This document shows, piece after piece, positions 18,726 through 50,274 of a stretch of 64,000 nucleotides of DNA. Each line of letters begins with the position of its first letter. Positions within the stretch are counted from its first letter, which is position 1. The notes under the pieces were generated by a model. That model worked only from the letters and a program-made list of their open reading frames with translations. It had not been told where the DNA came from and did not search any database. The DNA comes from Capitulum mitella. Lineage: Eukaryota; Arthropoda; Thecostraca; Pollicipedomorpha; Pollicipedidae. The stretch covers positions 15,704,970-15,768,969 of the forward strand of contig CP099841.1 of NCBI GenBank assembly GCA_030062745.1, in the 5' to 3' direction. The position numbers and the translations under genes were made by a program.

Positions 18726-18797
18726 CGAGCGGCTGCAGTCGCGGCTGCTGAGTGGGCCGCGGCTGACTGGTGGCAGCCGTGGAGATCGCCCAGGCCC

Positions 18798-19370
18798 ATG
18801 AGCAGGCGACCGCCAGCGCCGCAGAGCTCGGTGGCCGGGAAGAGCCGGCTGACGTCATCCTCCGGCTGGAGGGAGCTGGACGGAGAGGACAGCGGGCGGC
18901 GCCTCTGGACGACAACAGCGACAGGCGCCAGCCGCGGCGTGACCACGCTTCAGAGGAGCGGCGTACCAGCGGGCGCGACAGCGGCCGGCGGGAGCAGCAG
19001 CAGCGAGACTTGCCTGAGTCGGCGACACGTCTCGGCGGCTTGTCCGTTCCGATCGCGGCGCTGCTACGCGGCCGGTGCCGCCGGCCATGCCAGGGTGGCC
19101 TGCCGTGATCGGGCCCCTCAGCGCATCCGACGAGTCACGGAGGAAGAGTCATCGCAGGCGACTGCCTCTGCTACTGAGGAACACCTGGTGGCGCAGGCGA
19201 TCGGCTGGTGGCGCGAGCGAGCGAGAAAGCCGTCTTTTCTTTGTCGAGCCCCGTCAGTCCAAGTGGGTAAGGAGCGTAAATCTGCTTTGATGGTTAGCGT
19301 TGCCCTCGACGGTCAGCCTATGCAGATGGAGCTGGACGCGGGGGCGGCGTTGTCTGTATGCTCTGAGTAG
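18798..19370 (+). pseudogene. gag C-terminus and aspartic protease remnant
   Basis: The open frame ends with 'VSVALDGQPMQMELDAGAAL', the N-terminal half of a retropepsin-type protease. The expected catalytic triplet Asp-Thr/Ser-Gly reads Asp-Ala-Gly here, a change that should abolish activity. The upstream part is GC-rich and arginine-rich, and I cannot identify a zinc knuckle. A stop codon ends the frame soon after the active site. Confidence 0.6.
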
Positions 19371-19448
19371 GAGTTTAACCGCACGTGGCCAGTGAATAGG
19401 CCCGACATTAAACCGTATAACAAAATGTTTCAAACTTACAGCGGTTAA

Positions 19449-20420
19449 GTGCTGTCGTTGTACGGCCAGGCCATGGTGAATGTTCGCTACGGAGACCAGC
19501 GTGCTCATCTGTCACTGATTATTGTCAGGGATAAAGGGCCGTTTCTGTTTGGACGTAATTGGCTGTCACATTTTAAGCTGGATTGGCCGTCCATATTTCG
19601 TGTGACAAACGACTGTCAGGTTAGCAAGATTTTGACAGAGCTCTCTGAAGTTTCCAGTCAGGGCTTAGCTTGTTACAAAGGTGCAGAAGTGAACATCTCG
19701 GTGCATCCCGACGTAAAACCGAGCTGCTTCAAGGCTCGCAATGTCCCATTGGCTTACCGCGACCAGGTGGAAGCTGAGCTGGAAACCAAATGCAGCAGGG
19801 GCTTTGGGAGTCCGTCAGACGCGGTAACTGAGTGGCTGCTTTGGTTGTCGTACCAAAGCCTCAGGGGAAAAGTCGTTTGTGCGTTGACAGCAGGCTCACA
19901 GTGAACAGAGTCGCCCAAGCAGATCAGCTTCCGTTACCGCGTGTCGAGGAGCTGCCATCCGGTTTAGCTGGTAATCAATACGGTGTTTTCTAAGACAGAC
20001 TTGAAGTCCGCTTACATTCATAGTACTGAACGAGAATTCCCATATTTGACGGTAGATACATCGGAAGGGCTGCTGCGGCCCACACGCATCAGTTCCGGCT
20101 ACGCCTCAGCGTTGTCACTCTTTCAAAGGACCCTGGCCACGTCGTTGGCGGGGATACCGAGGGGCTGCGTGTTCCTTGATGACCGTGCGGAGTTGCGTCA
20201 GGTCCTGCGTCAGCTGAGTGATACAGGTCTCGAAGCCAGCAGAGGGAAATGTTGTTTTGGGATGGAAAGCGTAACCTGTTTGGGCAACGAGGTCGGCGGG
20301 AAAGGTGCAGAGACCACGGTTGATAAGATACGGGTGCTCCAGAGGCGCAAAATGCCTCGGAGCTTCGTTGCTGGCTGGGACTCATCAACTACTACGGCAA
20401 ATTTCTGCATGGTGTAGCGA
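19449..20420 (+). pseudogene. Protease C-terminus and reverse transcriptase remnant
   Basis: After the stop, the frame resumes with 'LFGRNWLSHFKLDW', the protease C-terminus, and then the RT start ('KARNVPLAYRDQVEAELE'). Later segments show 'FSKTDLKSAY' and 'GCVFLDD', the latter matching the RT catalytic box (usually YLDD or FLDD). They are followed by an RT thumb-like 'TGLEASRGKCCFGM'. Frames change at about 19860-19990 and 20340. Residues normally following the catalytic box are deleted. Confidence 0.65.
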
Positions 20421-20929
20421 GCACGCCGCGTCCTGCTCCGTCAAAATCAGCCATGGTAGCGTACAACCGCTGGAAGGAGAGTCTCTGAGAACGCAGGACG
20501 CAAAACTTCTCGTTTAGAACCCTCCAGTCCTGGCCAAGGGTGGAAAAGGCGGTGTTTTTGGTGTTGAAGAATAACGGAAAATGCCTGGTCCAAAAACATT
20601 TGATACTCCAAAGTATGATCTTGTACCTCCGTCAAAAACCTGCATTATAACCATCTTGACAAATTTTTAAGTCTGTAAGCGAATGACTCTGTCTCCATCC
20701 AGTAAGAGGCAGGTATGATGTCACAGTTGACTTACACTAAGTACACAGACTTAAACCAGTATAACTGTTTGCAAAATTTTGCATTCCAAAACAAAAATTA
20801 CACTCTGACACCAAGAACAACAAACAAATTTCCAACCTTAGGGCCTGGCCCATTTTGACCCGAAGCTGCCAGTGATTCTGGCTTGTGACGTCAGCCCGGT
20901 TGGGCTGGGCTGTGATCTCAGTCAACAGA

Positions 20930-21160
20930 CGAGGCGAGGATAACCTTCTACTCCCGGTCGCTGGATGGAGCCGAGAAACGTTATTCTCAGAGAGAGAGAG
21001 AGAGGGCTCAGATGGAAGCGACGGTTAAAAGGTTTTATTATTATCTGGCCGGCCGTCTGTTTTTTTTTGTACGGACAGATCATAAGCCTCTAATGGGACT
21101 GATAAGTGAGAAGAAGCCTCTCCCGCTGATTGCTTCACCTGGTGTGATTCGGGGGCCCTG
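20930..21160 (+). pseudogene. RNase H remnant of gypsy-like element
   Basis: Short segments read 'YSRSLDGAEKRYSQ' and 'FVRTDHKPLMGLISEKKPLP', matching the RNase H region that follows RT in Ty3/gypsy elements. An AG-repeat (about 20992-21005) and frame breaks interrupt it. Sequence between 20560 and 20930 looks unrelated, so an insertion or deletion separates it from the RT. Confidence 0.6.
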
Positions 21161-22805: not shown

Positions 22806-23613
22806 CTACTTGCCAGGGCTGCCAGGATTGCCTGGGTTCCCCGGATTGGGTGGATTCGGGATCTGGAATGTGGGCCTGAAAGGCAGTTTCGGTGGCGTGA
22901 AGGAACTGAAGGAGCCGAAATTCCCCGGACGGCCGAAGTTGCCAGGACGGGTGAACTGGCCCGGTCGGTTGCCAGGCTGACCCGGCAGGCCAGGTTTGCC
23001 CGGTTTGCCCGGCCTGCCAGGGATTCCCGGCTTTCCCGGCTCCCCCGGCTGTACTGACTGGAAGAACTGCGTATCGCGAGTGACTCGAACCTTGGCTAAT
23101 TTGCTGCCGTTCAGGCTGTTTCGGGACGCTGAGATGAGTGAAGCCATGGAGCGCTCCAAAATGTCCAGGAATCTGCTCTTCTCATATTCCGTGGTCTCTG
23201 ACGAGCCGGATTTTTGCCGCAATGCTTCGAATTGCTCGAGCTGTGCGATAAAATTGCTCTTTTCTGCCTCGTTCAGCGATGATGAGCTCGATCGGAGGCC
23301 AGAGCCAGATGGCACGCTGCTACTGGTAAACATAGCGCCCAGGGATGGCTGCGCTTCACATGCCGGCAGCAGCCACGCCCAGATACACAGGAGGTTTTCA
23401 TTGTCGAATCCCAGTCCATAGGGACACTTGAACTCCAGTTTGGTGAATGTGCCATTACTGAAATAATCGCGACAAAGATAGAAGTACTTGCAGTTGTTCT
23501 CATCGGCAGAATAGCCGTCTTGTGTGCAAGTGATTTCCTGCCTTTTGACGGGGCGGATCTCGGTGGATGAATTGCACGGCGTTGTTGCCGAAGCCCAGGT
23601 GCATGCTTCCCAC
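22806..23613 (-). CDS. Chitinase-like gene, exon 8: CBM14-2 and collagen-like tail
   Basis: The acceptor TTTTGCCTTTCAG precedes 'WEACTWASATTPC', which completes the first CBM14. The second CBM14 has cysteines at 473, 485, 491, 507, 520 and 529 ('CKYFYLC', 'FKCPYGLGFD'). A Ser/Gln/Glu-rich segment follows, with possible helix at 558-612, and then eight consecutive Gly-X-Pro triplets from about residue 634. The rest of the tail is Pro/Gly/Asn/Phe-rich and ends 'PGNPGNPGSPGK' before TAG. The stop overlaps a donor-like AA/GTAGGT, so a further collagen exon cannot be ruled out. Confidence 0.85.
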
Positions 23614-26600
23614 CTGAAAGGCAAAACAGCGTAACTGATATGCAGACCTCACAGTATGACTCATTGCGTATGTGACTACGACGAAACCAACATTCCTACT
23701 GAATGTTTATGATGTCGGCTCGCCTAACAAACAGCCTTTTCAATGCAGGGCGTATTTTAGTCTCACCTGCTGATGCCCCAGGAAACCTCAAGCACACGTA
23801 GTCTGTCAGCTGCACTATTGGCTTGAAATAGAACACGAGCTAGATAGGAATATCCTTTCTTTCACATTCCCCTGAAGCACTGTTTTTCTCTGTTGCATGG
23901 CCACAGTATTCCAGCGCGCGCAGCACAGTCGGGCAGACGCAGACATGCCGGGGTCGGGCCTCACTTGTCGTCGAACACCATGGTGCCGGGGCACTGGTAG
24001 AGGAAGAGCAGGGCGCCGCCGGCGACGTGCGGCACGCAGCGCTCGTACTGGTCGCAGCGGCTCGGCCGCCGGTGGTAGCCGGTGTCGGTGCACGAGCGGC
24101 GCTCTGGGCCGGCCCGCACCGGGCCGCGGCCGGCCGCCACCAGCCGAACGGCGGCTGGGCGCAGGCCGTCGCTGCCCGGCCTCAGACGGCGCTCGGCGGC
24201 GGCCAGCACCTGCTGAAGACGGCGCCGCAGCTGGCGGCGGTCCCCGGCGGCACTGTCTCGCCACCAGCTGACGACGCCCGCCAGCGAGCGGCGGCCGCAG
24301 TCGGCGTCAGCAGCCACAGAGTCCACCGCCACGCCCGGCAGATCCCGCAGCATCGAGTACAGCGTCTGCCACCGGCCCCAGGACGCAGTCAGTGCTGGTG
24401 CTCAGACAGAACAGATTCCACGGAAAGTCCACGCCAAATGTGATTTGTCCTATCCTAGAAGTATTATGACTGCTTTGGAAGACATTTGGTGACCTTAACA
24501 TTGACCTGAGGTGACGAAATTCATTTAGTATTCCTAGCTTCTTCTTGACCTAATCTTGCTCTTGTTTTATTTTTCATAACCTAGGAATTTTTGACATCAT
24601 GGGCTTTTTCACAAATACCAGTCCGATGACAAGGAACCTGGAATAGGGGCTCAGTTCGATTTCTCATCATGTATTACCATTGATAAGGCCATTCAAGTGC
24701 TGGCCACCAACCACTGACCAGCCGCCCATTGCGTACCTTCACGGCAACACTGACTTCATCTTCGTAAGCGACCCACGACTGATTGAAGAACGCGTACGGT
24801 GACGTCATGTCTGCATCCCGACGTTCCACCCAATCAGCGTTGAGCATATCGCAAAGCTGGAATGCAACAAGATGTTTTAAAACAAGCCCGTCAAAAGTGA
24901 CGAAAATGGTGGGTTGGAGGCCCACAGGTACCCTGAGGATTGTCCAGTCCTGGGCTTTTTTAGATGAAAATCTGCAGTGATTCACATCTGCACCTTGAGT
25001 TAGGCTTCTCGAGCCAGTTTGTAGGTTATCACAGCTTTATCGCTGTCGTCAAATGATGCTACAAGCTCAATGATATTCAGAAGTGAGAGGAGGGCACCGC
25101 CAATCCACCGCATGCGGCATACGCAACGTTGGCTCAAATGACGGCACCTGGTGGCAGATAGAATGCGGAAACCGGCATTAGGACCAGATCGCAGAGGAAA
25201 TTGTTAACAGTTTGACTGCTGTTGACTGACTTTTTCATGCCACTAGATCTAACTGTTAAAATTAACACGCGCAAAATGAACCCATCCCTGACGATATGAG
25301 GCTTTCCCTTAGCTGGTCAGAGTAGGAACAGGGCAGGTATTGACCTCCTGTCTGCTGAGGAGGGTCGGAGGACCGAGTGCTGGAGAGCCGGCTGTTGTCC
25401 GCTGGCGCTGCGTCAGCCGGTACAGCAGACCGGCTGTGGACACCGTCATCACCAGCCGGCGGGAAGGCACTCCTCGAGCCACCAGCAAGTCCAGCAGCGC
25501 GTCCTGAAGCGGCAGAACTGGCTGAACGTCCGCTCAGACATCACTCTCAGACGCGACATTCTTTCTCAGGACGATACAGCGGCTTCAAAACGACCCAAAA
25601 CGTAACCAGTCGGCAAAATGTCTCATTTCCGCGAGTTAACGAGGGCCTTGGTTCATTGATTATTTACGCACTTTATTGCCGAACAACTACAGTCACTTTC
25701 CTTAATCCCTCAGCGTCCTACCTCAAAAACGCAATTACCTAATAGTCAAAAATAATCGTACGTGCTCTCGGGCTTTAGGCATGGGTATGAAAATAAGCAG
25801 TCTTCGAGAGAAACCTTGCTTTACTCGCAAACATGTGCACATATATTGGGGCATTCCACGTGAGATCGACCAGAGGGTAACACACCATAGTCTCAGATCG
25901 TGATGGAATTTTTTCCGGTGGGTAATTTGTGGCTGGGATGTCAGACTTTCACTTCTCAGCTCCGTCTGACGTAGGGTTTTTGCGCCAGAGCAGTTCCAAA
26001 ATTTTAACTGTCATGATTTTTGGCCAAAACCATTGTGACATACTGTGTATTATTTCAGTAACCAATGACAACATTTTCAAAAACTGAATGTCGCTGTGAC
26101 GAGGATAAAATGCTGCGATGTTCAGCTATTCGCATTTTCCAAAGTTCCTTTTGGTTTTTATTTGAACTTAAAATCTATTTTCAAGGAGAAATTTTGGGGG
26201 TGCGGCCAGCGATTTTGATTCAAACTGTGAACATGCAAAATGTTCTCCGAAAGGTTTTGATTCGTTTTAAATCGAGAAAGTTTGCCCGTTTTCTTGCTAT
26301 GCACTAAACATTCACTTATAATTCACGACATATTGGCTGAAAATATCCTCGTTGAGCATTTGCGCATCCGTTCCCGGCATAAAACGACATAAAAATTACA
26401 GGTATAATTGGCTTATGGAGAGCGTGTCAGCTCATCACGTGATGTTGCTATGAACAAACCCTGAATAGAAATAGAAACACAGGTACTACGAACACTCGGT
26501 GGCGTTCGGGACGCAATTGACCGTAAACTTCAAAAAATGAAGTTCTCAATCGATGCCGTCGCGCACTGGGCAGTGGGCAGACGGTGCGGAGAATCCAATC

Positions 26601-29600
26601 GGCCTGGGTGCCAAAATGGACAGAGAAGTATGGAAATGAGGGTAGTTGATATGCTTGTCACCATAACATCACTGAAATATTCTTCTTGGATAAATATGAC
26701 GTCTGTGTTTGGCACCGTAGTTTGAGACCGGTGTCCATTTGTTTCGAAAATACTGTAGGCAACACAGATTGAACTATGGGCAACTGCTAACTCAGGACGG
26801 CATCATTGTTTTCCAAACCACGCGGAAAGAGCTGACGTGCAAGTCAGTCAGTCTTTGTAAAAGACTTTAAAGACTGTCAGTTTTTGTAAAAGACTGAAAT
26901 GACCTGGCCTTCTGGATCGCTTCTTAGCTTCTCACTGAGCACGCCAATTTTTCATCCTTTTCCCGGCGATCGAGAACGGCGTTTTTAACACTGCTGAAGT
27001 GTTTGGACACATCCCCCGAGATTTTTCAGAACAGCGAGAAAACAGTGGAGCGTGGCGCTTCCAAAGTCTCAGTATATTTTTCAGATCTATTGTGCACGTT
27101 CTGGACAAACATTGGTTTTGGGTCGGCCCGGATCATTGACCTAGGTCAGGTTAAAGAGACTTATGTCAAAAATAGTTCAGACTGCCATAACATTAACAAA
27201 TTGAAATAAATCAGGTTGAGTTTTGGTGCATGACCTTATCTTGCCAATGATCTTCAAACATTTATTTTAGGATTTCTCGAAATGGTGAGCTCAATAACCT
27301 GGTTTCAAGGAATGTTTTAGCCATTTTTCGGCAGATTTTATTTCCTGTATTTTTTCATCTTCCAACTTTTTCGGGGATAGAGAGAAAGAGATATTTCGGG
27401 GATAGAGAGTTACAGCAGATCGCCATGAGCATAAGTGAAAAATCGGCTGACTCAGTCAATGCTTTGGAGGTCAGTCCGAGGTCAAAGTTATTTTCCTTTT
27501 CCATCTCGCTTCTGGGCTAATTGTAAACATTAGTCCTGATGTGTACCACTTATCGCACTGTAGGGATCAAGGTCACTTGAGGTTTCTGAAGGTCATCTCG
27601 ATTCAGGGACCTATTTGAGCGCAAAATAGTTTGGTTTGGAAAGTTTAAAACGCACAGAAAATGATTTTTTTAGTACTTTGACGTATTTTTGGATATGAAT
27701 TTACCAATAAGGGGGTGGTGGTGGGTGATCTAAGCCCCGTCCATTATAAAGCACATGTGTCAACCACAACACCGTCGTGACTTCTTGCAAACTATGTTCA
27801 TACGGTTGGGCTGACAGGGTGAGGCAGCAGGCAAGCTTCGCCTGCTAGTGTTTGGCGGAAGATCGCGTCGTAAAACCACAATTCTTATTTGTGGGTGACA
27901 ATGAAGCTTTTTTAGTAAACTGATTTGTTTTCCATGAAGATGTAAGCTCTTCTTGTAAGGCCCATCCATCAGGGTTCTTTTTATTTTTCCCTATGGCTAC
28001 GGGTCGCGAGTTGGAAAGCAGGGGAGGGTGTTCAGACGCCCCCTGGTACGGGAAAGGTGGGTCTAACGGCTGGTATAGGGCGGATTAAAACAGGCACACA
28101 ATCTTTCCAATCGGCCCAATCGACGGTCAATCAGTCGACAAATCTGCCCCCCCAAAAAAAAAACAGAAGTAGACAGACGAAACAGCTTGGTATGATCAGT
28201 TTAACGCCGTCAGCTGACTGCACTTTCGGTCCAGTCCGTTGAGGCGTCATGCCATCGAAATCTGGATGGCGTCATTCCGTTTGTCCATGGAGTCCGCGTC
28301 GGGCGAGTCCGCGACGGATTACCGTTCCTGTAAGCTGTGCTTTAGCGTTTTACCACCCCCGCGACGCACTTCCCCGTGACGTGCAGTGTGGATCAAGGCC
28401 CATGCTAGATGGCCATCTATCGTGGGAAAAAACTCATAACTACATCTTCGCAGCGGCTGACAGTTGACGATAAACATGGTGAAATGACGGAATGTCTGCC
28501 ATACAAATGAAATAAAATATTGACCTTCGGATGTTCGGAACCATTTTATCCGGACGTTCATGCTACTTTTTGCCGGTGCAGGTCGGAAATCCCCGACAAG
28601 GACGTTTTCTTTGAAACCAACGCGATTTTGACGCGCGATGTGCAACATTAAAAACAAAAATGGGGAATTTTTATGGATTATAAGACAAATCAGAACTCTT
28701 TGGGGAAAATTTGACTGTTGAAGTTTTCAATCGGAATCATTGGCCTCGCCTTCGAAATTTGACCTTGAAAATATGTTTAAAGGTCGAATGAAAAGGGAAA
28801 GACGTTTTGGAAAATGCGAATTGCAGAAGCATGCGGTATTTCGTTTTAATCAGAACGATACCCAGTTTTTGAAAATGTGTTGATTGGTTACTGCAATAAA
28901 ACGCATTACTTCATCAAAGGCTCATTTCAGTTTACCAGTAAATTACCAAGTAATGATATATACTATGATAATATCAAACAGTAATAATAATAATTGCCAA
29001 ATTTAAAAAATCAGGTTTATCTAGCGCAAAAAATTGGTCAAAAATTGACCGAGTTGAGGATTGATAATATGAAATCTCAGTCACAGATTATCCACCGGAA
29101 CAAAGTTCATCAAGGTTTGAGACCATGATGTGTTAGCTTTGGAATTGCCTGGTCGATTTGTCCTGGAATGCCCCTATTAAGAATGTCCCAACGTTTCTGC
29201 CGTGAGCCTGAAAGATGAGTCGCCTGAAAATGGCCTATGGTTGAAACGTTGACTGTTACTATTCACATTTGTTGCGTGTAAACTTTCCCGGTACAAAGAA
29301 GGCTGCATATTTTCGAAAACACAACTACCTTTTGTAAAAAACAAAAACAAAACGTAATAAACGGTTTCTCATGTCATCATAGGTGAGGTTGTAATGACAA
29401 CGAAATGACACAATGACCTGAATCAAAGATCCGGTTTTCGGTCGTTATCTTAAGAAGGTACATAAGAACGTACATACGTTTTCCGCAGAACCCTAACAGA
29501 CTACGTATTATAGAGATTATTTAGTTAAGTATGGTTGGAACTGTCATTATGTAGTCTCATTTGTTAAATAAGGACGTATTTGTGCAAAAACGTGATGCGA

Positions 29601-32600
29601 GGTGAAACCATTCCATAATCGTCAGTCTCACGAGAAGTTTAAAAATGGTTTATTTGCTATCCTATATTGTCACAGTTTATTAAATATACATGTTATATAT
29701 ATAGGTACATAAAGCAAGCATCAGTCCTATATTTGTCCTAGAAGGGGATACACTGATTCTGCGCAAATCTAAGAAATGGCCAACATTGATATCACTTGAC
29801 GTCACTCGTAGCTTGCACAACCTGGTAACTGGTCTTTTTGTCATCCCTCATGAACATCTTGCGAGCCAACTCAGAAGAAAAATACAAATGGCATAATCCT
29901 AACAAGACACGAAAACTGCCCTATCATTCTGTTTGTGCCTCATATGAACTGACCTATAGTGACTAGGTACACTGTTTCTTCCCCCCCCCCAAAAAAAAAA
30001 ACTGTGTGTTCAGCTAGAGATGCTGAAAACTGGATTTTGCTGGTCGGGAATTAAATTGGGAAGAGCCAAAATGGGGAGATAAAAATCCTGCAATATTTCT
30101 TGGGTTCACGTTTCTTAGGTGGTCGTCACCATTTAACATTATCACCGAAACTGGAGACAACCAACGGACGTTTATGGGGCCTCAAGATGGCTATCGATTG
30201 TCATTGATTTGATTTGATTGTCATTGATCAATGACACAAGATTGCCATTTTATTCACTGAGATCTGTCCATGGCTGCTCGGGACAAGTGGGTACGTAAAA
30301 ATGAAAGCAAAACGTTTCGCTCTATACTTATTCGAAATACATCACTAGGGTCAAGAGCTTTAAGAAAGATAAAGAAATGCTGTTTTATTTCGTGACTGAG
30401 ATGCATGGTGAGTTTCACAACTTCTTCATCGAGCACAACTGGTCGTTTCGTGATGTCAGCTTAGTATTCATCTCCATTTCGGCTTAGCAAGCTTACAAAA
30501 AAACGAATGGAAGTGCGCTTAGACGTACCACTCCGGCCATGTCACCATCTCCGATCAGACGGGTCAGCTGACGGGTGGCGTCGGCCGGGCTGTCTGCCAA
30601 GTCGGCCCCCACCACCAGCCGGTCCACCAGACGGCCAAGTGAAGTCAGGTTATCAAGGGCGTCCAGTTGGCGACTGTCTGGCGCCAGCCGCACGTATACC
30701 AGACCGCTGTCAATTGGCAGCACCGCCCGAGTCCTCTGAAACGTCCGACAAACACACCGGTCACAGCCAATCAACATCCCAGAATACCAGACCCTCATGC
30801 CACCGTACCAGCCTGTTGGGTCCCACCCCCAGTAGACCAGTCTGTTATGTCGGGTCACGCCCGCAGCGGACACTTCCCTAGCAGACGTAGGAGATCGCTT
30901 CATGTCGACCGGGCGATCTGTAAGTACGTCAGAAACCGCCGGTATTCGCCTGCCCACTCTGGAGATACTGGAGATACTGACATCTTGACCTTGTGTTGTC
31001 ATCGCTAACTTTATGTCACCATTTGGCCTTTTTTACCTTGATGAGGTGTAAGGCTACTATGTTTTATTGTGATATTAGACATTTTGTAATGTCTTTTATT
31101 TCTTTATTTTTGCGCATTACCTATATATACTAATGCCTTTCATTGCGATCGTTACGTTCATATATGTAGTTTTCTGCCTTTGCACGGGTGCACTTGAACC
31201 CACAATATTGGTCTCTCTGACTCACAAAGCTGGCTTAAGCACCCACAAACAATGAAATTATTCAATCTCCTGCAATTTCTAATTTTAATCTGTCTCTCAC
31301 TTTCTCCTTTTCTTTTCCTCCATTTTCCCAAAGGTCCTGAAATATCCATTTTGCGACACGTTCTTGATCCATTGTGCCCGATATAAGTTTTGTGCGCTGG
31401 CTACATTTCTTATGCTTCTGCTTCATTTTTCCCGGGTCACTTCATGCTTACTTGCATGCTTCCCCTATCGCTGAGGATGGCGAGCGTGTATCTTTTAGGC
31501 CTTCCTAGATAGTTAGTTTTAGCATTTTAACGTGACACTGGTGACATCTTGATGCCAAAAACAAACGCGTTTGAGATTTGAAAGCCATGCGGTGAAACAA
31601 AGCCACGTGAATTTTTCAAGTCAAGGTAAAATATTTCCACTTGACACGTCCTTCCCCCCTTCTAGGAAACCAAATATTCAAAGGTGGGGGAATGAAGCAT
31701 ATCTGGACCAGTCGCAGAGACGATGAATAGGGGTGTATTCAGATTTTGGCGTCAGGGGGTCCACTGGCAGGGTTGAAAGGGCTTAATTATGTATTATACA
31801 CATTACCATACATATGTACACTTTCTTTGGTGCTTAAAGGAATGTGGAATAGACCGCAAAGATCGTGAGATAATATTGTACCCAAACCTTACCTGTCGCA
31901 GTCAACTTCTTTTGTCAGATTTTCGGAATTTGTACTAAATTTTCCTCGTTTTTTAGATGAGCGCAAAATAAAGTGGCCCAAATCTGGGGAAATTAAATTT
32001 TTGGGTACGTTAGGTCTTTAGTGGTGCGTACTGATGAAGCAACTGCCTGTGCACACCCATAATCGTTTTTGGAAAACGACACGCCTGGTCACGTTCCCAA
32101 AACAGATAGTCGGTAAAATGTTCGACATCGCTGGTCGGGAAGCATACAAATGACTGCTTAGTGACCCAGTCCCCCATTCACTTACGTTTATCAATATTTC
32201 CAGGTTCTTCACGTCTTCGTTGTTGGAGAGCGCACCATAGCCATTGAACTCAACCCCGATGGCAGCGTTTTCTCTGAGGCTATGCCCAAGGCTGCTGATG
32301 AAATTGTCCATGTTCTCATTAGATGTCACCAGTTGCCGGAGCCGGCCCGATGACAAATCTTGTCCCAGGGACAATAGCCGCCTCAGATCAGTTCTGACAG
32401 GCTTAGCAGCCTTGCTCTTTGACCCTAAAACATAAAAAGATATGCCACGATGCCTGGTTATTAAGGCACCATGCATAGGCACGGCTTATTCACGCCAGTT
32501 TCCAGCATCCCAGTGATAATCGTTTTGCGTTATACAGGTTGAATAGGACCTGTATCTTCCCGCAAACAGAGAATCCCAAGTCCAACAAGTTGCTTGCTCA

Positions 32601-33735
32601 GATGGGTGGCATCTGGTTACTGATGCCCTAAGTTTTGCTTGTCCTGCATGACGTTTATGATTTTGCAGCCCACTACAAAATTTGGCGTCTCCAGAACTGA
32701 CGATTTCCAAACCAAATACCTGAACGGCAGACGGGTCAACCTCAGCATGTGCGTCCCGCACACACCTGGCTAAAACTGTTGACATGCAAAACAGCCATAT
32801 GTATCGACTACCATGTATCACGTGCTCCTTCCCGTCAATTTTCAGAATCCCAGGGGCAGTAGTTCTGCGGAAATGAAGGAAAAGCATTAATCTTGGACAC
32901 CTCGCGCTTCACATGCAAGTTTCATTCCGGATTTGGCCTGAATCCATCAAAGCTAATCGTCTATTTGCCCCTCAGTCTTTTCAAGCCATCGTTCCACCAA
33001 ACGGCGCCGTTTGCGTCCCGGAATAGAGGAACCATCAGAATCCATCAAAAACAGAGGGGTGTAAAAGTGGCGCACGGGCGTTGCATAGGACCCGTTACAT
33101 TCTGCCCATCACATAGGGTATCGATGGATAGCCCCAATGCTGGTCTGTCTACCCACCGAATTTCAGCCGCCTAGGTCACTACTGAAGACACCCGGAGGTC
33201 TCCGAGTCCAGATCGAAGCACGTGTCTGTGGATCGCCACATGGATTGCGCATGGATGACAACCATGAAAGCACGCATCCGCAAGCGGGGCCCATATTGTC
33301 ACCAAATCTTGAGTCAACAGATTCAATAGCACCTGCCGGTTGACCTGTACCCGAGAGTAACTGAAATTTCCAGAGGTCCGGCTTGCGCCGGATGGCACAT
33401 GCCATACGCCACGAATCGCTTCAGTACCTGCACCACAATTTTTCAGCCCAGTCGGGACACCCGATGGTGCCCTTTGTGGCGATCGGCTGGCGCGTTCGTG
33501 CGCTGGAGGCTCCGAAGCTTGGACTCACGAAAACACTTACAAAAATTACGATCTGAACGTTTTCGGAACAGCCGCCATGTATGAAATCTCACTTCTAAAA
33601 ACGTACAAAGCACACTTTCAGCCTCTTCGATTTAGAAAAATCTACGCTGAGCAGCGATACAGCTCGGTCCATCCCCTGGTGTGGTGCGCTCCGCTTTTAT
33701 CTTTCGATATCGGTTTTACGATCCCTTTCCCTTGT

Positions 33736-33775
<40 letters not shown>

Positions 33776-33788
33776 TATACATATACAT

Positions 33789-33830
<42 letters not shown>

Positions 33831-36800
33831 GATGCCTGAAATCGTGGCAACTGTTTTTCAATGAACAGATGGATTTGCTCATGATGTTGCCGGTTTGCGC
33901 ATGTCAGCAGGATATTGACTCCAACCCTACCTGCTTCCTACAAATTTTTGTCCACTGATGCTTTCCGATCTTGATTCTACCAACAACGAGTGGATTTCAC
34001 TTCCGCTCAACCGGGGGCGAGGGGTTCTTGAGGACCCTATTGGGTTTTCTAAACATAGCGCAAAAACGAAAAAGCTAGAGACATGTCAGGCCACTGACCT
34101 ATTTGACCTTTAAGCAAGGCATGTCAAAATACCTTTAGGCATCTGCCAGTCTTTGTCAAAAAGAGATACTGACAAACGAAAAATGCCACACGAATCCCTA
34201 ACCCATTCTCTACATTATGTATCTGAATCTTTCAGAAGACTGTGTGACCTGACCGTATGTCAAACGTAACGCGATGCTCATTTTGGTCTTTCTGACAGCA
34301 GTTACAGGAGATTAAGGCGCTGTCTAAGGGCCGGAAGCTTTTTTGGACAAGAAAATGTATGTAAATCGTGCTGTACGCCCTTTGAATAATACAACATATT
34401 GTTTATAAGGAGCCAATGACCTGACGTCAGGTCAGCTCGTTACAAATTTGGATAAACGACAAAATGGATATTAAATTTCTTTGTCACTCACTTCTTGTGA
34501 GGCATGATAGGTGTACATCTCAGTTTAAACTCGTGAGGGCTTTGGAATGGCATGATCCGAGATGGCCTGACGTGGTCTGATATCATTTTAGAGGTCATTT
34601 GTCGCCTGGGACGTCCTAGCATCCCATGAATTGTTTTAAGACAAGGTATACAGTTGTTTCATATGTTTACTTTTACTCACTTTTTAGGTACAAACCTTCA
34701 ACCAGCCTTGAAACAAGCTAACCTTGCATGACTGTGTTGAACGTAAGAACTGCATTGACGATAGGTTGTTTGCATGAGTTCAGACGTATTTCAATATGTC
34801 GTTTCGTTTTGAGGCACCGTGATTTTTGGAACGGGACAGATACATTTTGTCTGTTATGGTCCTTAACCTGACCTGATCTGACCTTTCCTTGACTTCCATA
34901 ACATTCATGAACGCATCAGCATGATTAAAGCGATCAAATACCGTTTGTCTGGCATTTGCACCTTTACCCAATCGCAAGGTAGGAATGTTGTAAGATTTGG
35001 CCTTAATCGAACCGATATGACTCAGATGACCTATATTAACCTTTTACTGATAAACATTGCCATATCTGACCAAGTATTTGTAAAGGTGATCCCGAAACGT
35101 ATGCCTGAAGAGACTATATTTGCAAGTTTCGACAAATCAATGTTGCTCACTGGTTGTTGGCCTGACCTGACATGACCTGGGGAGCATCAAATTGTTTTAT
35201 GCTAATGGAAAAACGTTTTGGCACTTCATGACCATTACTGGCACTGGCACTGGCATTTTGGCGCTGATCATTACTCAAGATCAGTCCATATAGCCATTTC
35301 CATTGCCTTTGTTACCCGCATACTATGGAAGCCATGACATGGCTTTGCTTAAGCTCTTGATCCTAAACTGCTGATCCAGAGCCAATAAATATGCATTCAT
35401 TCTTTATAGGATTTGCTTCCGATTGGTGTTATTCCTATACCCGCAGCTCTCTCAGTTCTCGAGATCCTGGGGGTTCTCGAGGACCCCTCAGGAAAGCGAA
35501 GAACGATTCGGACAACCGGGAGTGCTCGGACTAACCTGCGTCCAACTGGCAGGCGGCGACTACGACTACGCCCGACTGGGGGGGAAGCGGTTGAGCGACT
35601 CACCTCTGACTCACGAATGGTTGGCTGCGCGAAAAAAAGCACACCGTTGGAAAGCTGGTGACAAGCAGAGCTCGAAACTGGCCTGTTTTTTTCGGTTTTG
35701 GATAATATGTAAGCCATTTACGCCCTACGTACGTTCTCTCATACCCGACTGTATGACACCGAGAAACGGCATGGGTCTCAAGGGTTGTGATTGATAAAGT
35801 GAAGGTACGAACGAACAGGTAAAAGTCCGCAGATGCCGATACACGTCTAATTTCTCCGATCTGTAGAACATATACACGAAAACGTCGAGTTGAAGACACA
35901 GCGATTATCGTGCCACTGCACGGCGGGCGTCGGTGCAGAACGCGGGAGGAAATTAACAGGAAATTAATTTTAGCGTTTTTCCATTTTGACGGCAGACACC
36001 TTGCAAAGCAGCGTTTCTTGATGCTAATGGTTCTTGTGATGGTTTTCCATGCTTAAATTTTCAAATAATTCAGTCTTTATCAGTGTACACAATTAGCGGG
36101 GCTTTATTCATAAAAGCTTATTTATTTCCAACATACGCAATTTTTTAGATCTTTTTAGCATCTTGGTATTATTCGCAACTGTAAGAGCTAGTTCTGTTGT
36201 TTTTTCTGCGTTCCAGGTCACTCATTGCTGATTTTGTTGGCGGTGAATTTTAGCTCATAACAGTTATTTGCGACCCGACCTCAGGCTAATGGTTGGAGGC
36301 GACTGACATTTTGCCCACTGACGTTAACTGGATGTCTGCATCATCCAACGTTGAAAATGTTACAAACGTTCCATCAATTTCCGCAAAACGACATGCCTTG
36401 AAATTAGGGTTGACTTTAGGTCACTGACCTGGAAGTTTACGAAAAATCTGAGACTACAGTTTTGTTGCATTTATCAGAGCTCTAATCAATAAAAATTTTA
36501 ATGTGACATGCTTTCTGAAAACGTTACAGAGCGCTGAACTTTTTTGGACATACGTCCGCTTGACTTGACCTAGGTCAAACATCTGACCTGACCTGAGGTC
36601 ATCTTTTGATATAACATGCGAAAATAATCCACTAAAAAGTGCATAAAATTTCATGGCACTGTGTTTGTTCGTTCTCTTGCAGTCTTGGAAAAACCACAGG
36701 GGGCGGTCAACCGCCCTCCTTAGTCGGGGCCGGGTTAACCCACCACTGACTGGGTGAGGGGGCGTTTACCCCCCCCCCGTGCGTTTCTTGGATATCTTCC

Positions 36801-39800
36801 AAACGAATAAACAAAATTGATACACTGACTTGTAGGGTCATCCAAAGATGTCAGATGGAGGTCACTATCGTGTTTGAGGTACTCCGAATATGAAACTACA
36901 AAATGTTGCAAAGTTTCATGTTTACGGTGATTGGGGCAATTTCAAGTATCTTTCTGCGCCCGAGGCTCTTTCAAAGTGTCATTTTTAAAATCTCCGTGTC
37001 AAATGGAAACGCACCGCATGACACGTTCCAACATAGGTTCAGTCTGATCTGACCTGTGGCCTTGACCTTGCATGACCTTGGTCGGGTGGCACTTAGAGTG
37101 TGAACTTAAGCTTCCAAGAACATATTACCAAGGAAACTTCAGTTTCGTTCTGCTTTTCATTGTGATTAGGCGACTTTGGAGAAAATGGTCACTTTTCCGT
37201 GTATGACCTGACCTGCGACATTATCAGTGGCTCTAAAAAAACAAAGAAAATGCACATGACACAGGGCCGCAAGGTTCGGCGCTTTCTATTGCCATTTGAA
37301 TCAGCCGAATCAGACAATTAGTACTCGAGATAGACAAGGAGGGTGTTAAACTCCTCCCCCCGTCAATGTCAGGTGGCCAATGGTACCAGTCAATGCCGGG
37401 ATAAATGTACACATACGCACCGGTTATTCTGAAGTCTCTGGCGATGTCTACTCCTGGTAAAACTAACGTTGAGCAGGTGCATGTTGCTGACTTTTCCACG
37501 CCGTCATGACTTTCTCCAGTGTAGCAGATTACCTCAAGGCCATTTCGTGGACTGGGACAAGCTGTAAAAAGATTTATGCATCTTTAGATGGAATACATGA
37601 TCACGTGCACTTTTTTCAACGAATGATGTTGTCACTGCCAGCGTGCTAATCTTGTGCTGCTGTGGAGACAGATATTGCTCTTTTATTGCCTTGATAATGA
37701 TGTTGTAATATGCCGGGTGGAAACACATGCAGTAATAGTAAATAGGAATAGAGAATGAAACGACTCTGGGAGAAAATTACGTGCTTACTTTAGAATGGTG
37801 GTGCTCTTTGAGAATACATCAAGCCTGTCATTAAAGCCTATTTTTGAGACTGGTCCGATGCTAACTGCGTTTGTGCTTCAACCTGAATGATCTTCATATG
37901 CACTACTGCTGTTGTAACGTATGGAAACATTCATCGCCCATGTAATGATGCTGAAAAAAGCGTTTTTAGACAGGAGTTGAGCACACAATAATATGAATGG
38001 GATATCGCTGTTTTCGTGCTTCTCAGCATCAAGATGTATCAGTCAATAAGCACCTGATTTGGTCCGCAGCGCCTGAAGGCAAAACTGACCTGACTGAAAA
38101 ACAGCGAGAATATTCGATGTAGTTGATTACATATCCCAGCTGGGGTAGGCTGAAAATACCCTTGGTTTGTCCGTGTGCACAGATTTGATCCCATTTACCG
38201 TCCGATTTTGAGCGCTTGCATTGCATGTATGCGGATAATGGGAAAGACTAGGAATCATACAGGAGCTCTTCGTTGTTTTTGAGGTCCCACCGAAACATGC
38301 AAAATTTAGACTCGGTGTTTTACATCGCAGAATTGCGTGCACTGCATGCAGTGGACAGCCACTCTCAGAAGCCAAGCCATCTAACCATTAGCAACGTGAG
38401 CCATTCCCCCTCTGTCCGGTCGACGGTGTAGAAGAAACGGGACTTGGTCGATGGCCCAAATCCTTTGAAATGATTGCATTGACTGTCAGACGTTAAATCT
38501 TGCGTGTACTGTTTTTTTTCTGGTATTTTCACTGAATGCCGCCATTTCGGCTTAAGCGCCGATTTCTAAGGTTTCGTCAAATTCGGACGGAAACCAAAAG
38601 CACTTCCCACTGGAGACAATGCTTTGAAAATCCATGCTATTAGGGATGCCCGAGTAGGTATACCGTACACACGTACACTACGTACACGTAGGTACGTACC
38701 GTAAGCTAGCGGCCAGGCTGACACGAGACAACCGGCCCGATTGGCTGCCAAAAGCATAGGCGCACCCGAGAACAAGAAGACATAGTACCTGACCCCTGCC
38801 TTGGGCCATCGATGTTAATTTTGCCGTGTTATTTGCGTTTAAGCTACTTTTAACGTGTTAACTTATGCACATGGGTGCGTTCCTAATCGGAGAAGCGCGG
38901 CAGACGGCAGGCGTGCATGAATCCGACTGTTCTGGCTGTGAAAACTCCAGGATGACTTCTATTGTCGCATTTGCATAGTGGTGTCCTTGCGGGAAATTCC
39001 CACCAAGCACATTATATTGGTGAAGCTGAAAATCTACATGTTAATAGGCGCATATCCAGGAGGGGTTCAGGGGCGCATTCCTCTTTCGTTGTTTTTTTTT
39101 CTAGATTTTTCATTGTTAACAAAAATTTGGTTTCTTCAGTCTCTGTGGTGCACTTTTTATAACAAAGGATCTATTTCCGAATATCCGGGATTCGCACCTG
39201 ATGACCTTCCACCCCTTGCATTGCTGGCACGGGACAAAGCATGGAATTTTTAGGCGGACATGCACCGTTACAGCTCCTGATCATGTCTACGGGGAAGTCT
39301 GTGTTTTCTCCCATGCCATTCCGATTGTCCATAATCCTGCATCCTTGACTAAATTTTTACATTAACTGTTGTCTCTCAACGGCAGTTATTTTTCTGGCTT
39401 CATCTTAACCCAGCACCGCCTGGAGAGGTATCAAACAGGGCACCCCTCGATTTTTCGTGAATAACTTCCGAACCGTTAGAGACAGCCAGACAAACTTTCA
39501 GTACCTGTTCATCAATCTGTTTTACATATTTTGACACCAAAAGCATTTCCATGCTAGGCCAGATCATGAAGATATGACGCCATAAATGAATCCTTGCCTG
39601 CATGTTTTCACAGCTTCGGGCGGTGGGGAGAACATGTTTGTTTTTCTTTGTTTCGTTTTTTTGTAATATTTCCGAATATAATGCATCGATTATTTGGATT
39701 TGAATAGGAAGCGGTCTCCAAAAGGCTTTACAACCAAGACACGTCAACGTTAGAGGTCACGTCAGGTCATATGCATGATGACCGTTGGACTGTTGCATTG

Positions 39801-41677
39801 GAGGTGATAGACGTGGCTGCCGCTGACCTTCTCCATCGTTGAAGCTAGGCAAACAAATCCATATGCGCCTTTTAGAAAGGTTCACCAAATGCAGCGTAAG
39901 GTCATGTCAGGTCGCGTCATGGGTAGATATCAAAACGAAATAAAATGCAACGTCGCCTGCGAAAGCTCGTTCAGCAGCAGTAGAAAGTAATTACTGTTCC
40001 CGGTCAGAAAAAGGAAATGATAATCTGTCCCCACCTGGCTTAACTTTGGCCCGATAAAGGACAGAGAGAGTAGATGTAATTTCCCGAGAGGTCATTTCAG
40101 ATCTGCAACTGACGCATTTAAGTATCCCAGCGAGCAGTTATTGCTCTTTGTCAGAAAGAGTAATGCAACCTTATCTGACCTGACCTAGACTGATCTTGAC
40201 TGGACGAAAAGCAGGTAATGCAAAACTGATCATCAGATGGCTTCACTTCAGGCCTAAGAACAGTATTTCACCTGATCTAGGTTGACCTTGGCCAGACATT
40301 GTTTTCCGTTTTCGCATGCTTCTAATGCAGAAGATCGTGACCTTTCGTTTGATACCCAGTTGAAGGCTCTAAGACCAGTATTGCCTCGTGTTATGCATTT
40401 GATATGGCCTGTGGCGTCATTAGTCACGTGATCAGGGCTAACACAGTATTTTCTGAATCGCAAGACTCAGGGCTATCAGTTGGTTCAGATACGGCGGTTA
40501 AATCCTGAGATATCCTGAGAGCAGGGGGTGCCCTTTTTGACACCCCCCAGGCGATGGCAGGTACAAAAACACCCCAGGTGGTGCCGGGTTAAGCTGTGTT
40601 TGTACCGTGGCGTTCCACTCATGTTACAACGCGCCACCCTCCCCGTTCGGCAGCATCGGTCGAAATGACCTGACGCGCGGTAAGTCCGTCCTCCGGTAGC
40701 GGGCGAGGTCCAACCCTGAATGGATAACGTCATGTCTCCGTAGCCTTTGTCCGGGGTGCTGAGTCACCATGATTTTTGTAACATTGAGTGTCTGTTGGAA
40801 TGCATCCTACTCGCTGTCCGATATCGGGAAAACCTTTTCCGTAAATCCTCGCTTAACCTAAAAGGGTAATACTGAAAGTTCCGTCAACATAAAGCTATAA
40901 TTATCGAATGAATCAAGAAAATTCTGGGGCCAGTTAAGCGTCGTGAGAGAAGTGAATGCGTGATTCAAAATGTCAGGACCTGGCCATGCCAGGCATTACG
41001 CGCTCTGCAGAGCTCAGGTTATGTGTCTTTGCATGTTTTTTCTTTCTTTTTTTGACTAGTGGCTCTTTTTTCTACGTTGCGAATGCAACGTATCGTAAGA
41101 AAATCGTAAAGACCTGCTGAGTAACGCTGTATTTTTGCTTGCTGCGACACAAGGCGATTATCAACACAACACGACATCTTCAGATGGTATGGCCTTCGTG
41201 GTTATTCACGCGTCAGCTTTGTTTCCGGATGTCACGCGAAGACGTTTCAAGGTGTTCGTGATAAGCCCCTGTAGGGATCTACTGTGGCTTTTAGCTCATT
41301 AAAAGCCCCACTGAGGGAGTTATACAGCTTTCTCTTGCATTTCAACATTCCTTCCATCACGACAGAAGACAGCTAGCATATGTAAACAATGCAGTGTTCA
41401 TCCTGCATATGCATGTGCTCGTCAAATGGTTGAGTAAAACCCGTTTGGTGAAATATTATACATGTAAAATGCCACCGACGAGTGTAGTCAGGGGCATGAA
41501 AATTACATATGTATTCAATTATCATTGACTGAGTCCAGTGCTGAAAAAAAACCTGCTTTGGGTTTTAGCCCTTTTGTTGACGACGCATATCTTATGACTA
41601 GTACAACACAGACCTTTGACGACTGCAGACGAAATCCATAGCAACAGAAAAGCTACGACTTTCTGCGTATCTGCCAT
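22806..41677 (-). CDS. Secreted inactive chitinase-like (GH18) protein with two CBM14 domains and collagen-like tail
   Basis: Eight coding exons (41677-41614, 37561-37421, 32424-32186, 30735-30529, 25503-25345, 24856-24737, 24365-23965, 23613-22806) join with consistent phases into 712 codons. Residues 1-22 are a signal peptide. Residues 28-345 follow the GH18 chitinase fold block by block: 'EVICYTG' strand, 'RRLLSLGQ', the catalytic-strand position, 'LVDRLVVGADL', 'GVPSRRLVMTVSTAG', and 'SPYAFFNQSWVAYEDE' near the end. At the catalytic motif (usually DxxDxDxE) the sequence is IGVEFNGY, so all four acidic positions are altered and the acid/base Glu is Tyr. Two six-cysteine CBM14 chitin-binding domains (402-457, 473-529), a possible helical segment (about 558-612) and eight Gly-X-Pro triplets follow. 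It is probably a secreted chitin-binding lectin rather than an enzyme. Exon structure and domain order are seen; function is inferred. Confidence 0.85.
23965..24365 (-). CDS. Chitinase-like gene, exon 7: GH18 end, linker, CBM14-1
   Basis: The exon starts with 'TLYSMLRDLPGVAVDSVA', the last GH18 helix and strand (usually GGxMVWxxDxDDF). A strikingly GC-rich stretch then encodes an Arg/Ala-rich linker (about residues 345-400). The first CBM14 domain begins at Cys402 ('CTDTGYHRRPSRCDQYERC') and continues into exon 8. The acceptor GGTGGCAG has a weak pyrimidine tract and was chosen because it alone keeps the phase. The donor is CAA/GTGAGG, phase 2. Confidence 0.75.
24737..24856 (-). CDS. Chitinase-like gene, exon 6: C-terminal GH18 block
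   Basis: Forty codons lie between acceptor TTGTTGCATTCCAG and donor AAG/GTACGC, phase 0. 'LCDMLNADWVERRD' matches 'EICDMLxxGATxxWD', and 'SPYAFFNQSWVAYEDEVS' matches 'VPYAYKGxQWVGYDDxxS', so this is the most conserved part of the domain. Confidence 0.85.
25345..25503 (-). CDS. Chitinase-like gene, exon 5: 'GVPxxKL' block
   Basis: The acceptor TTCTGCCGCTTCAG precedes 'DALLDLLVARGVPSRRLVM', a close match to the GH18 segment 'WLSxGAPxxKLVLGVP'. 'AGSPALGPPTLLSRQE' then matches the segment 'APALGPG...YYE'. The YGR motif of active enzymes is replaced by TAG. The donor GAG/GTCAAT is weaker than the others, but phase and homology both support it. Confidence 0.75.
29196..29260 (+). repeat. Degenerate hammerhead-like / Penelope-type motif
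   Basis: CTGAAAA at 29224, a GGCC/GGTT stem with TAT loop and GAAAC at 29243 repeat the block order seen at 17304-17480. The core G of CUGANGA is replaced by A, so this copy should not self-cleave. Confidence 0.4.
30219..30236. repeat. Perfect 18-bp palindrome
   Basis: TGTCATTGATCAATGACA is its own reverse complement. The left half (TTGTCATTGATT) is also present just upstream near 30199-30210. Confidence 0.8.
30529..30735 (-). CDS. Chitinase-like gene, exon 4: central GH18 barrel
   Basis: The acceptor GGACGTTTCAG and the donor GTG/GTACGT enclose 69 codons, phase 0 at both ends. 'VLPIDSGLVYVRLAPDS' fits the strand that reads 'LTAAVSP' or similar in chitinases. 'LVDRLVVGADLAD' fits the YVDFINVMTYD block, in which the usual Tyr-Asp substrate residues are not conserved. 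Confidence 0.8.
30736..32185. other. Intron 3 of the chitinase-like gene
   Basis: The intron runs between phase-0 splice sites. No repeat copy or second coding segment is recognised in it. Confidence 0.5.
32186..32424 (-). CDS. Chitinase-like gene, exon 3: dead catalytic strand
   Basis: The acceptor TTTTTATGTTTTAG and the donor AAC/GTAAGT are both strong. The 239-bp exon contains 'LRRLLSLGQ' (the LLSxGG block), 'NMDNFISSLGHSL' (the RxxFI helix) and 'AAIGVEFNGYG' where active enzymes have FDGxDxDWEYP. The two last glycines of the SxGG block are also altered (GQ). The exon ends with 'NLEILIN', matching the helix after the catalytic strand. Confidence 0.85.
32725..33597 (+). repeat. Dispersed repeat R3, copy 1 (about 0.87 kb)
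   Basis: It is collinear with 58270-59112: 'cctcagcatgtgcgtcccgc', 'cctgaatccatc', 'gtgtctgtggatcgccacat' and 'ccgccatgtatgaaatctca' occur in the same order. The copies are clearly diverged. I recognise no protein coded by it. It lies inside intron 2 of the chitinase-like gene. Confidence 0.75.
33739..33829. repeat. (TA)n microsatellite with ACATATA units
   Basis: The tract is about 90 bp of TA repeats interrupted by 'catatacatata' units. Confidence 0.95.
34417..34434. promoter_or_regulatory. Palindromic TGACCT pair around CRE-like core
   Basis: TGACCTGACGTCAGGTCA is a perfect 18-bp palindrome: two nuclear-receptor hexamers in everted order with TGACGTCA at the centre, the cAMP-response core. 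It is intronic and embedded in TGACCT-rich repeat DNA. Function is inference only. Confidence 0.3.
35446..35660 (+). repeat. Dispersed repeat R4, copy 1
   Basis: 'ctcgagatcctgggggttctcgaggacc' type sequence followed by 'gcgaagaacgattcgga' recurs at 42770-42960 ('ctcgagatcatgggcggttctcgaaaacc', 'gcgaagcaaggcgtgattcgga'). The two copies lie in the same orientation. Confidence 0.6.
36418..36430. promoter_or_regulatory. Perfect PAL1-type ecdysone response element
   Basis: AGGTCACTGACCT is an inverted repeat of AGGTCA with one base between, the ideal binding site of the EcR/USP (RXR) heterodimer. It lies in intron 2 of the chitinase-like gene, 991 bp downstream of the end of exon 2 in transcript direction. 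A second palindrome, TTGACCTAGGTCAA, is at 36565-36578. Surrounding DNA is rich in single TGACCT motifs, so chance or repeat origin is possible. Confidence 0.4.
36695..36790. other. Back-to-back GGGTTAACCC junction
   Basis: GGGTTAACCC at 36732-36741 has TTAA flanked by CCGGG on one side and CCCACCACTG on the other, as if two TTAA-type elements met at one target site. A 7-bp stem, GGGCGGT/ACCGCCC, lies at 36701-36716. Neither element could be delimited fully. Confidence 0.35.
37421..37561 (-). CDS. Chitinase-like gene, exon 2: GH18 N-terminus
   Basis: A strong acceptor, AAATCTTTTTACAG, precedes 141 bp read in phase 1 to phase 1. The translation opens with a cysteine after the signal peptide and contains 'GLEVICYTGESHDG', the first strand of a GH18 barrel (usually VVCYY or similar), then 'CTCSTLVL' at the place of the usual CTHxxYAF block. 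The donor is ACCG/GTGCGT. The region between this exon and 'LLSLG' is shorter than in active chitinases. Confidence 0.8.
37562..39404. other. Intron 1 of the chitinase-like gene, downstream part
   Basis: There is no further coding segment of the gene here that fits between the signal peptide and exon 2. A segment at 39040-39100 ('ggcgcatatccaggagggg') resembles the start of element R2. Confidence 0.4.
39405..40592 (+). mobile_element. Complete TTAA element, family E (piggyBac-like MITE)
   Basis: It starts with TTAACCCAGCACCGCCTGG and ends with the reverse complement of TTAACCCGGCACCACCTGG (17 of 19 bases identical). A second subterminal block, AGGGCACCCC, is mirrored as well. The element is 1188 bp, shows no transposase, and contains TGACCT hexamers. 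A diverged partial copy is at 60925-61290. It sits in intron 1 of the chitinase-like gene. Confidence 0.7.
40593..41613. other. Intron 1, upstream part
   Basis: No repeat family or coding segment is recognised between the TTAA element and exon 1. Confidence 0.4.
41614..41677 (-). CDS. Chitinase-like gene, exon 1: signal peptide
   Basis: The ATG at 41677 opens 21 codons, M-A-D-T-Q-K followed by 'VVAFLLLWISSAVV', a typical hydrophobic signal peptide. The start context has purine at -3 and G at +4. The donor is AAAG/GTCTGT with phase 1, matching exon 2. A strong acceptor-like TTTTTCACCCTGTTCCAG ends about 14 bases before the ATG, so a separate 5' UTR exon probably lies further upstream. The link to exon 2 across 4 kb is inferred from phase and protein logic. 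Confidence 0.7.
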
Positions 41678-44928: not shown

Positions 44929-46500
44929 CTTATCACTTTATCACTTTATCACTGGAAACCGGATTCCACGGGCATGACCCCATTAGAAGTCGCACGTAAG
45001 ATCACTGTTTGACCTAAAGGGGTGAAGCGGGGTGCCATAGTGTGGCTAAAAGACCAAGCTACACGCTGGTTTTTTCGTCGCTCTAGCACGTCAGGTTCGG
45101 AACTGGTGTTGGGGGTGGGTCGTGCCTACCCCCCATCCATCGCTCCTTCCATTTGTGGCATTGAAGAGTAAGTAATGTAAGCATTGTGTACCTGCTGAAA
45201 GATGGATTTTTGTTGAGGTTCTACGCCCAAAAAAATGTCATCAACAAAAAGACAATGATGCAGCATCTTGATGTAAGTCCTGCAGGTTCTTGTTTTTAGT
45301 TTTTCGTTGAGGTGGTCATATGAGAGAAAAGCGTTGTACTTGATCATCTCGCCAGTTTCCCTTGTTCACCTCGGCAATTAAAGGAGCAGCTAGGCTGCCA
45401 GTCCGACCATCTCCGATCATCGAAAGCAGCGATGAGTATTCCTCCACTGCCCTCAAGGCACAGCAAATTCGTAGTATGTATTGCATTATATTGCACATTG
45501 CATACACATTGCATTGCATATGTAGCATTCATAATTTTCCTGGCGTTAGGCGTAGGTCCATTCTGACCGCCAGAGCAGTGATATAATGACAGAAACCCCA
45601 AATGATGAATTTTTTTGAAATTTCAAGTTTTGCTGCACGTTGCACAGTGCTGCACAATACTGCACAATGTTGCAGAAACAGGCGATACCTTGAACCTGAA
45701 TCAGCACACTACAACGCGACCCGACAATTCAGAACTCATACATGTAACCAATTTCATAGATGTGACAGATCTTGCATGTATTGGAGGCCAATTGCAGTAA
45801 TGGTCATACAATTCCATAATTCTGTTTCGTTTCGAGTCTATGGCATCATCCTAGGAACGTACCGGCAGTCACTCAAAGAAATAAAAATTAGTACTGAGAA
45901 TCAGTAACATAACAAGAATGACATGAGCGCACCATGACTGAAGATCAAAACGAGGCCCAGCTAAACAAGAAGGAAACGTGGGCAATCGACCAAGAGGAAA
46001 CGCTGCCACATTCATGATTTAAGACACTCATGATCACTCTAAACCTTACGTGAAATGGTAGTTTCAGAACGATTTCTGAGTGAAGCACCGGATGGATGTA
46101 AATGGAAAACGTATCAATAGGAAGCACGAGGAATTCTCTTTCGAGTTCGATCCTTTTCATCAATGGTGGATGGCAATCTATTCGAGAATCGAAAAACAAT
46201 GACGTGATGTTGAGGTGTTTTGTTGATCCCTATGGTGTACAATCAGGTAACTCGCAGGCAGCAGGGAATGAGATGGAAGCGCTGTAGCGCCCTCAAGTTT
46301 TTTTCGCTCTCTAAAACATTTGTAGAGTGCGACTATATGTACTGCATTTATAACTGCACATTAGGTTTGCCACACTTTGCCAGCCCCCGCCCCTCCCCTC
46401 CCACTTTGCCGGCCCTTCATGATGTCAAATTTTGGTAACGCCTTGAACTGTACTGATCAGTCTGTGGGTGGGAAACAGTCGCCACGTTCCCCTGCCGCCG

Positions 46501-49990: not shown

Positions 49991-50274
<284 letters not shown>

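Follow-up and report, generated by a model that had tools for sequence, protein, structure and literature searches.

The 64-kb stretch of DNA analysed here, referred to below as the window, carries on its minus strand a pseudo-chitinase gene at 22806..41677 (the window gene). Eight exons, read from 41677 down to 22806 with consistent phases and no internal stops, join into a 712-aa frame that predicts, in this order, a signal peptide, a degenerate GH18 domain, two CBM14 domains, a helical segment and a tail with Gly-X-Y triplets. Two relatives served as references for the gene model, namely the Pollicipes pollicipes protein LOC119113905 and a second gene on contig C14 of the same genome (the C14 paralog).

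Exon 1 (41614..41677, as all others on the minus strand) would encode the signal peptide MADTQKVVAFLLLWISSAVVK and ends in a phase 1 donor. It was placed without homology, by its phase, a hydrophobic stretch and a donor score that was the highest of 13 ATG-donor combinations; a competing combination at 38809-38686 has a donor score of -0.2 versus 1.6 for the chosen exon. The predicted signal peptide supports the earlier proposal of a secreted protein. The GH18 domain starts in exon 2 (37421..37561), and the intron between exons 2 and 3 matches that of the C14 paralog in alignment column and phase. Exon 3 (32186..32424), whose acceptor was corrected by comparison with Pollicipes and C14, holds the former catalytic motif, AIGVEFNGYG, at 32263-32234. 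A longer junction of exons 2 and 3, giving 733 aa, was rejected, as it reads 21 aa of intron and both relatives have the shorter form. Exon 4 (30529..30735) covers the GH18 beta-6 region and was included in the intron comparison with C14. Exon 5 (25345..25503) continues the GH18 domain; its donor, GAG/GTCAAT, is weak (0.2), but an intron occupies this position in the C14 paralog as well. Exon 6 (24737..24856), also GH18, includes SPYAFFNQSWVAYEDE and is 60% identical to Pollicipes. The end of the GH18 domain and the first part of CBM14-1 lie in exon 7 (23965..24365), and the rest of CBM14-1, CBM14-2, the helical segment, the tail and the stop codon in exon 8 (22806..23613). All six comparable introns, those between exons 2 and 8, occupy the same alignment column and have the same phase in the C14 paralog, and the Pollicipes protein aligns over the exon junctions. 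An initial sequence-only reading of this DNA proposed eight phase-matched exons, without listing them; the eight exons given here form one open frame of 712 aa, with two relatives of the same domain order.

Remains of a retroelement lie at 18702-21158 on the plus strand, 1.6 kb past the 3' end of the window gene, with an RT_RNaseH match in the frame 20916-21158. On the other side of the gene are a 35-bp tandem repeat at 46500-46999, with 14.3 copies at 97% matches and all three minus-strand frames open, a 270-base A run at 50005-50274 (93% matches) and a 156-bp tandem repeat at 51156-51604. Whole-frame scans, which genes with short exons can escape, covered both strands between 42 and 52 kb and the minus strand between 52 and 62 kb and found no Pfam family at E 0.001.

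Whole-frame Pfam scans also miss the GH18 domain of the window gene, because its exons are short. In the joined model Glyco_hydro_18 matches with 54.5 bits (E 1.9e-14, profile positions 2-311 of 317, cut-off 29.6), and hhalign gives a probability of 98.9 against six GH18 proteins of the same genome. CBM_14 reaches 49.3 bits in two stretches, above its curated cut-off, and both domains carry six Cys; CBM14-2 spans aa 473-529 (23358..23528, minus strand). The domain search that the earlier reading had called for returned the GH18 and the two CBM14 domains that it had named. The helical segment (aa 559-613, 23106..23270, minus strand) was judged by eye from the sequence. AlphaFold2, run on the Pollicipes protein as a single sequence without an alignment, gave a mean pLDDT of 36, too low to bear on the fold either way.

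The DxxDxDxE motif with its catalytic Glu, which defines GH18 enzymes, is absent from the window gene and from both relatives, in agreement with the earlier description of a GH18 domain without its catalytic motif. The corresponding region reads AIGVEFNGYG in the window gene, DGVEINAAS in C14 and DGVEVNADS in Pollicipes, and the position of the catalytic Glu is occupied by Gly or Tyr (depending on the alignment), Ala and Asp, respectively. A reference gene of the same genome (L001) looks active, with FDGLDLDWE, GGW, MAYDYH and MVWSV; relative to it, the window gene lacks the GGW Trp, and its MxYD strand and last Trp strand read VVGADLA and VAVDSV, respectively. In all three proteins the GGW Trp is missing, the beta-6 Tyr is gone and the beta-8 Trp is replaced by Asp. 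In the window gene and Pollicipes the beta-6 Asp may have survived: the profile alignment pairs it with Asp, though the gapless alignment to CHI3L1 does not. The beta-1 Trp is kept in C14 and Pollicipes (CYTEGW) and absent from the window gene (CYTGESH).

In the mammalian chitinase-like lectin YKL-40, W31 and W352 touch the sugar, according to the accessible part of PMC11190707. An Asp occupies the position that we took for W352 in all three proteins, and at the one taken for W31, placed by means of CYYGSW in L001, the Trp of C14 and Pollicipes has been lost from the window gene; the groove Trp residues expected of a YKL-40-type lectin are therefore not present in the window protein. These losses make chitin binding in the usual groove of the GH18 barrel unlikely, and the CBM14 pair, not the dead barrel, is probably the chitin-binding part. 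The earlier suggestion that the dead GH18 itself binds chitin is not supported: the window protein has lost the catalytic motif along with the beta-6 Tyr and the Trp residues of GGW and of beta-8.

Relatives were sought in a collection of 5.8 billion proteins, the roughly 8000 candidates sharing most words with the query being scored in each search. Among these, LOC119113905 (P0001) was the only match. A search with its residues 30-560 returned the same protein alone among the ~8000 candidates scored, and a search with the two-sequence alignment returned nothing among ~8000, P0001 lying outside the length range of that search. With this number of candidates scored per search, the lack of other relatives is weak evidence of absence. 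LOC119113905 is annotated as uncharacterized and partial (1044 aa) and is 46.6% identical to the window protein over 610 aa. It shares the GH18 domain, the two CBM14 domains and the Gly-rich tail, so that the domain order that was to be looked for in other arthropods is present in P. pollicipes; it differs in a longer Gly-rich tail, an RVRR site and the retained beta-1 Trp.

The search of the window gene's own genome (477 Mb, 16 contigs; 38 candidates, all scored) revealed the C14 paralog, whose exon 2 acceptor fits phase 1 and whose exon 1 was not found. Identities are 302/630 between the window and C14 proteins, 301/687 (43.8%) between window and Pollicipes, and 442/639 (69.2%) between C14 and Pollicipes. 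Because the last value is the highest, C14 and the Pollicipes gene look like orthologs and the window gene like a separate paralog, and the duplication that gave rise to it probably predates the split from Pollicipes. These identities also make it most likely that the animal is a barnacle. No Pollicipes ortholog of the window gene was present among the ~8000 candidates scored. All 18 Cys upstream of the tail, 12 in the CBM14 domains and six in the GH18 domain, are identical in the three proteins. The CBM14 domains are the better conserved part, with 64.3% and 71.9% identity between window and C14 versus 49.0% in the GH18 part, and 57.1% and 70.2% versus 47.6% between window and Pollicipes. A rough NG86 estimate for the window gene against C14 (dN 0.46, dS 1.31, pN/pS 0.55) suggests constraint.

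Among the other GH18 genes of this genome no group stood out as the nearest, the six best of nine matching frames scoring 41.1, 40.6, 36.1, 34.9, 34.6 and 28.8 bits. One on the same contig, at C3:15859367-15882886 and thus at a distance of about 110 kb, was considered as a close relative and rejected, its best match having only E 0.039. Four GH18 genes (L002 and L003 on C3, L005 on C5 and L006 on C15) have the catalytic Glu changed to Lys (DWK), and two of them, L002 and L005, show a CBM14-like tail; judged from the Lys substitution, the four represent another type of pseudo-chitinase in this animal.

The tail of the window protein is 83 aa long and contains nine perfect Gly-X-Y triplets (aa 634-660, 22965..23045, minus strand), eight of them Gly-X-Pro. 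A perfect run of nine, the longest in the tail, was reached by none of 2000 tail shuffles, and the 12 Gly-X-Pro of the tail by one of 2000. The short Gly-X-Pro tail described at the outset is therefore real as a pattern beyond chance, and it is collagen-like in this sense; the Pfam Collagen profile scores 22.2 bits, below its cut-off of 27.2. No further Gly-X-Y runs were found on either strand of the window, two plus-strand matches being the reverse of the same tail. Gly-rich tails with Gly-X-Y runs occur in all three proteins, with up to 12 triplets in Pollicipes. Between the helical segment and the tail, C14 and Pollicipes have RVRR followed by SPQW; the window gene has RVTR, as RVTRD at 23073..23087 (minus strand), near the place of the furin-type site of its relatives in a region where the alignment is loose.

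In C14 the tail consists of three open stretches in different frames, the third ending at a stop codon, with 384 + 1131 + 1052 = 2567 codons in frame and Gly-X-Y runs as long as 15, 17 and 13 triplets, respectively. The shifts between frames could reflect errors of assembly, small introns or damage. The tail is mostly Gly-rich, and a unit of ~95 aa occurs in it in 14 good copies and a weak one; the search for this unit scored 150 of 351 candidates, and the remaining 18 of its 33 rows were weaker (E 1.5e-6 or worse) and lay elsewhere. Along C14:10298124-10306187 (L025, L026 and L033) the ~95-aa units are followed by GGAGRPGGGAGGRGPGG-like repeats and then by 11 GDRGQA units.

We consider it somewhat better than an even bet (probability about 0.55) that the window gene encodes a secreted, non-enzymatic protein of the chitin matrix, most likely that of a barnacle. 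From what is known of the family, we infer that its CBM14 domains bind chitin, and the pair would anchor the protein there. The anatomy further suggests that the dead GH18 barrel could have been kept as a rigid scaffold or a protein-binding surface and that the Gly-rich tail could connect the protein with further components of the matrix or with more molecules of its own kind. The whole would act in building or holding a chitin matrix instead of cutting it, a role like the one suggested for the insect Idgfs. Against such a role it can be held that the window tail, being short, could matter little. A broader and more tentative proposal, which we regard as speculative, is that barnacles made a family of chitin-anchored fibre proteins from a chitinase, with a collagen- or silk-like tail of up to ~2,570 residues grown by tandem duplication; the window gene would be the short-tailed member, and GH18 plus CBM14 would dock on the chitin of cuticle or adhesive.

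Among the alternatives, the one that survives best, while still improbable, is that a proprotein convertase cleaves a precursor at RVRR/RVTR and so separates the chitin-binding body from the Gly-rich tail, each then acting on its own. The RVRR-SPQW of both relatives, placed between helical segment and tail, speaks for it, and the window gene, which keeps only the minimal R-x-x-R, speaks against it; for the body part it is compatible with a matrix protein. Rather less probable is the trimerising, collectin-like stem of the sequence-only reading, which would make the protein a soluble lectin of immunity or adhesion with three sets of CBM14 (and GH18) heads. A collectin joins a collagen stem to a C-type lectin domain, and Pro in the Y position of Gly-X-Y can be hydroxylated. 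The nine triplets, with Pro in Y in eight of them, stood up to shuffling, and runs reach 12 triplets in Pollicipes and 17 in C14. The stem is, however, short and C-terminal, is followed by non-collagenous residues and stays under the Pfam Collagen cut-off; no C-type lectin family matched the window protein in Pfam at E 0.01, and the Gly-rich tails of the relatives are interrupted and run to hundreds or thousands of residues. Trimerisation by such a stem is thus possible and weakly supported.

It is unlikely that the window gene is decaying towards a pseudogene after losing the long tail and a further groove Trp. Its shorter tail, the absent beta-1 Trp and two weak donors would fit such decay; its 712 open codons in consistent phases, the full set of 18 conserved Cys and the excess of dS over dN do not. 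That the model joins exons of unrelated genes is very improbable, for although the joins are predicted from DNA and the largest introns measure ~5 kb, the domain order common to the Pollicipes protein and the C14 paralog and the agreement of every comparable intron already speak against an artefact for exons 2-8.

The preferred reading, that of a chitin-matrix protein, can be set beside what is reported from barnacle adhesives and shells. Table 2 of PMC8371367 lists as chitinases four proteins of the P. pollicipes adhesive, with CBM_14 and GH18_chitinase-like domains; the accessible part of the same paper reports none of such chitinases from the A. amphitrite adhesive. One chitinase is reported from the A. 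amphitrite shell matrix in the part available of PMC11293433, and the corresponding part of PMC7177777, on the P. pollicipes cement proteome, mentions none.

Neither a description of a dead GH18 joined to a CBM14 pair and a collagen-like tail nor a mention of LOC119113905 was found among the papers listed from the literature searched, which omits most subscription journals; within that scope the domain order appears to be undescribed. Judged from the three sequences, the order is real and conserved, and the kind of protein, chitinase-like and CBM14-bearing, is a known one. This order bears on the role of non-enzymatic GH18 proteins in the arthropod matrix. In it a lost enzyme is combined with a collagen-like tail and two chitin anchors, and the two paralogs that show it have tails of very different length. 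The animal is most likely a barnacle, which fixes a chitinous body to rock, so that a linker from chitin to fibre is directly testable.

To our knowledge, insect Idgfs consist of a single GH18 domain with neither CBM14 nor a collagen-like tail, and YKL-40 (CHI3L1) has no CBM14. Crustacean group 4 chitinases resemble the window protein in their two chitin-binding domains (PMC8002005), and the word collagen is absent from the main text of that paper. Mammalian chitinase-like lectins (YKL-40/CHI3L1), which gave the best GH18 matches in the PDB, share the inactive GH18 domain with the window protein and differ from it in the groove, where the W31 and W352 of YKL-40 stand, by our placement, against a lost residue and an Asp. 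The two CBM14 domains set the window protein apart from the Idgfs as well; it is like them in being a non-enzymatic GH18 protein with a suggested matrix role, the Idgfs having been suggested, in the accessible part of PMC4738247, to be structural proteins that maintain the matrix.
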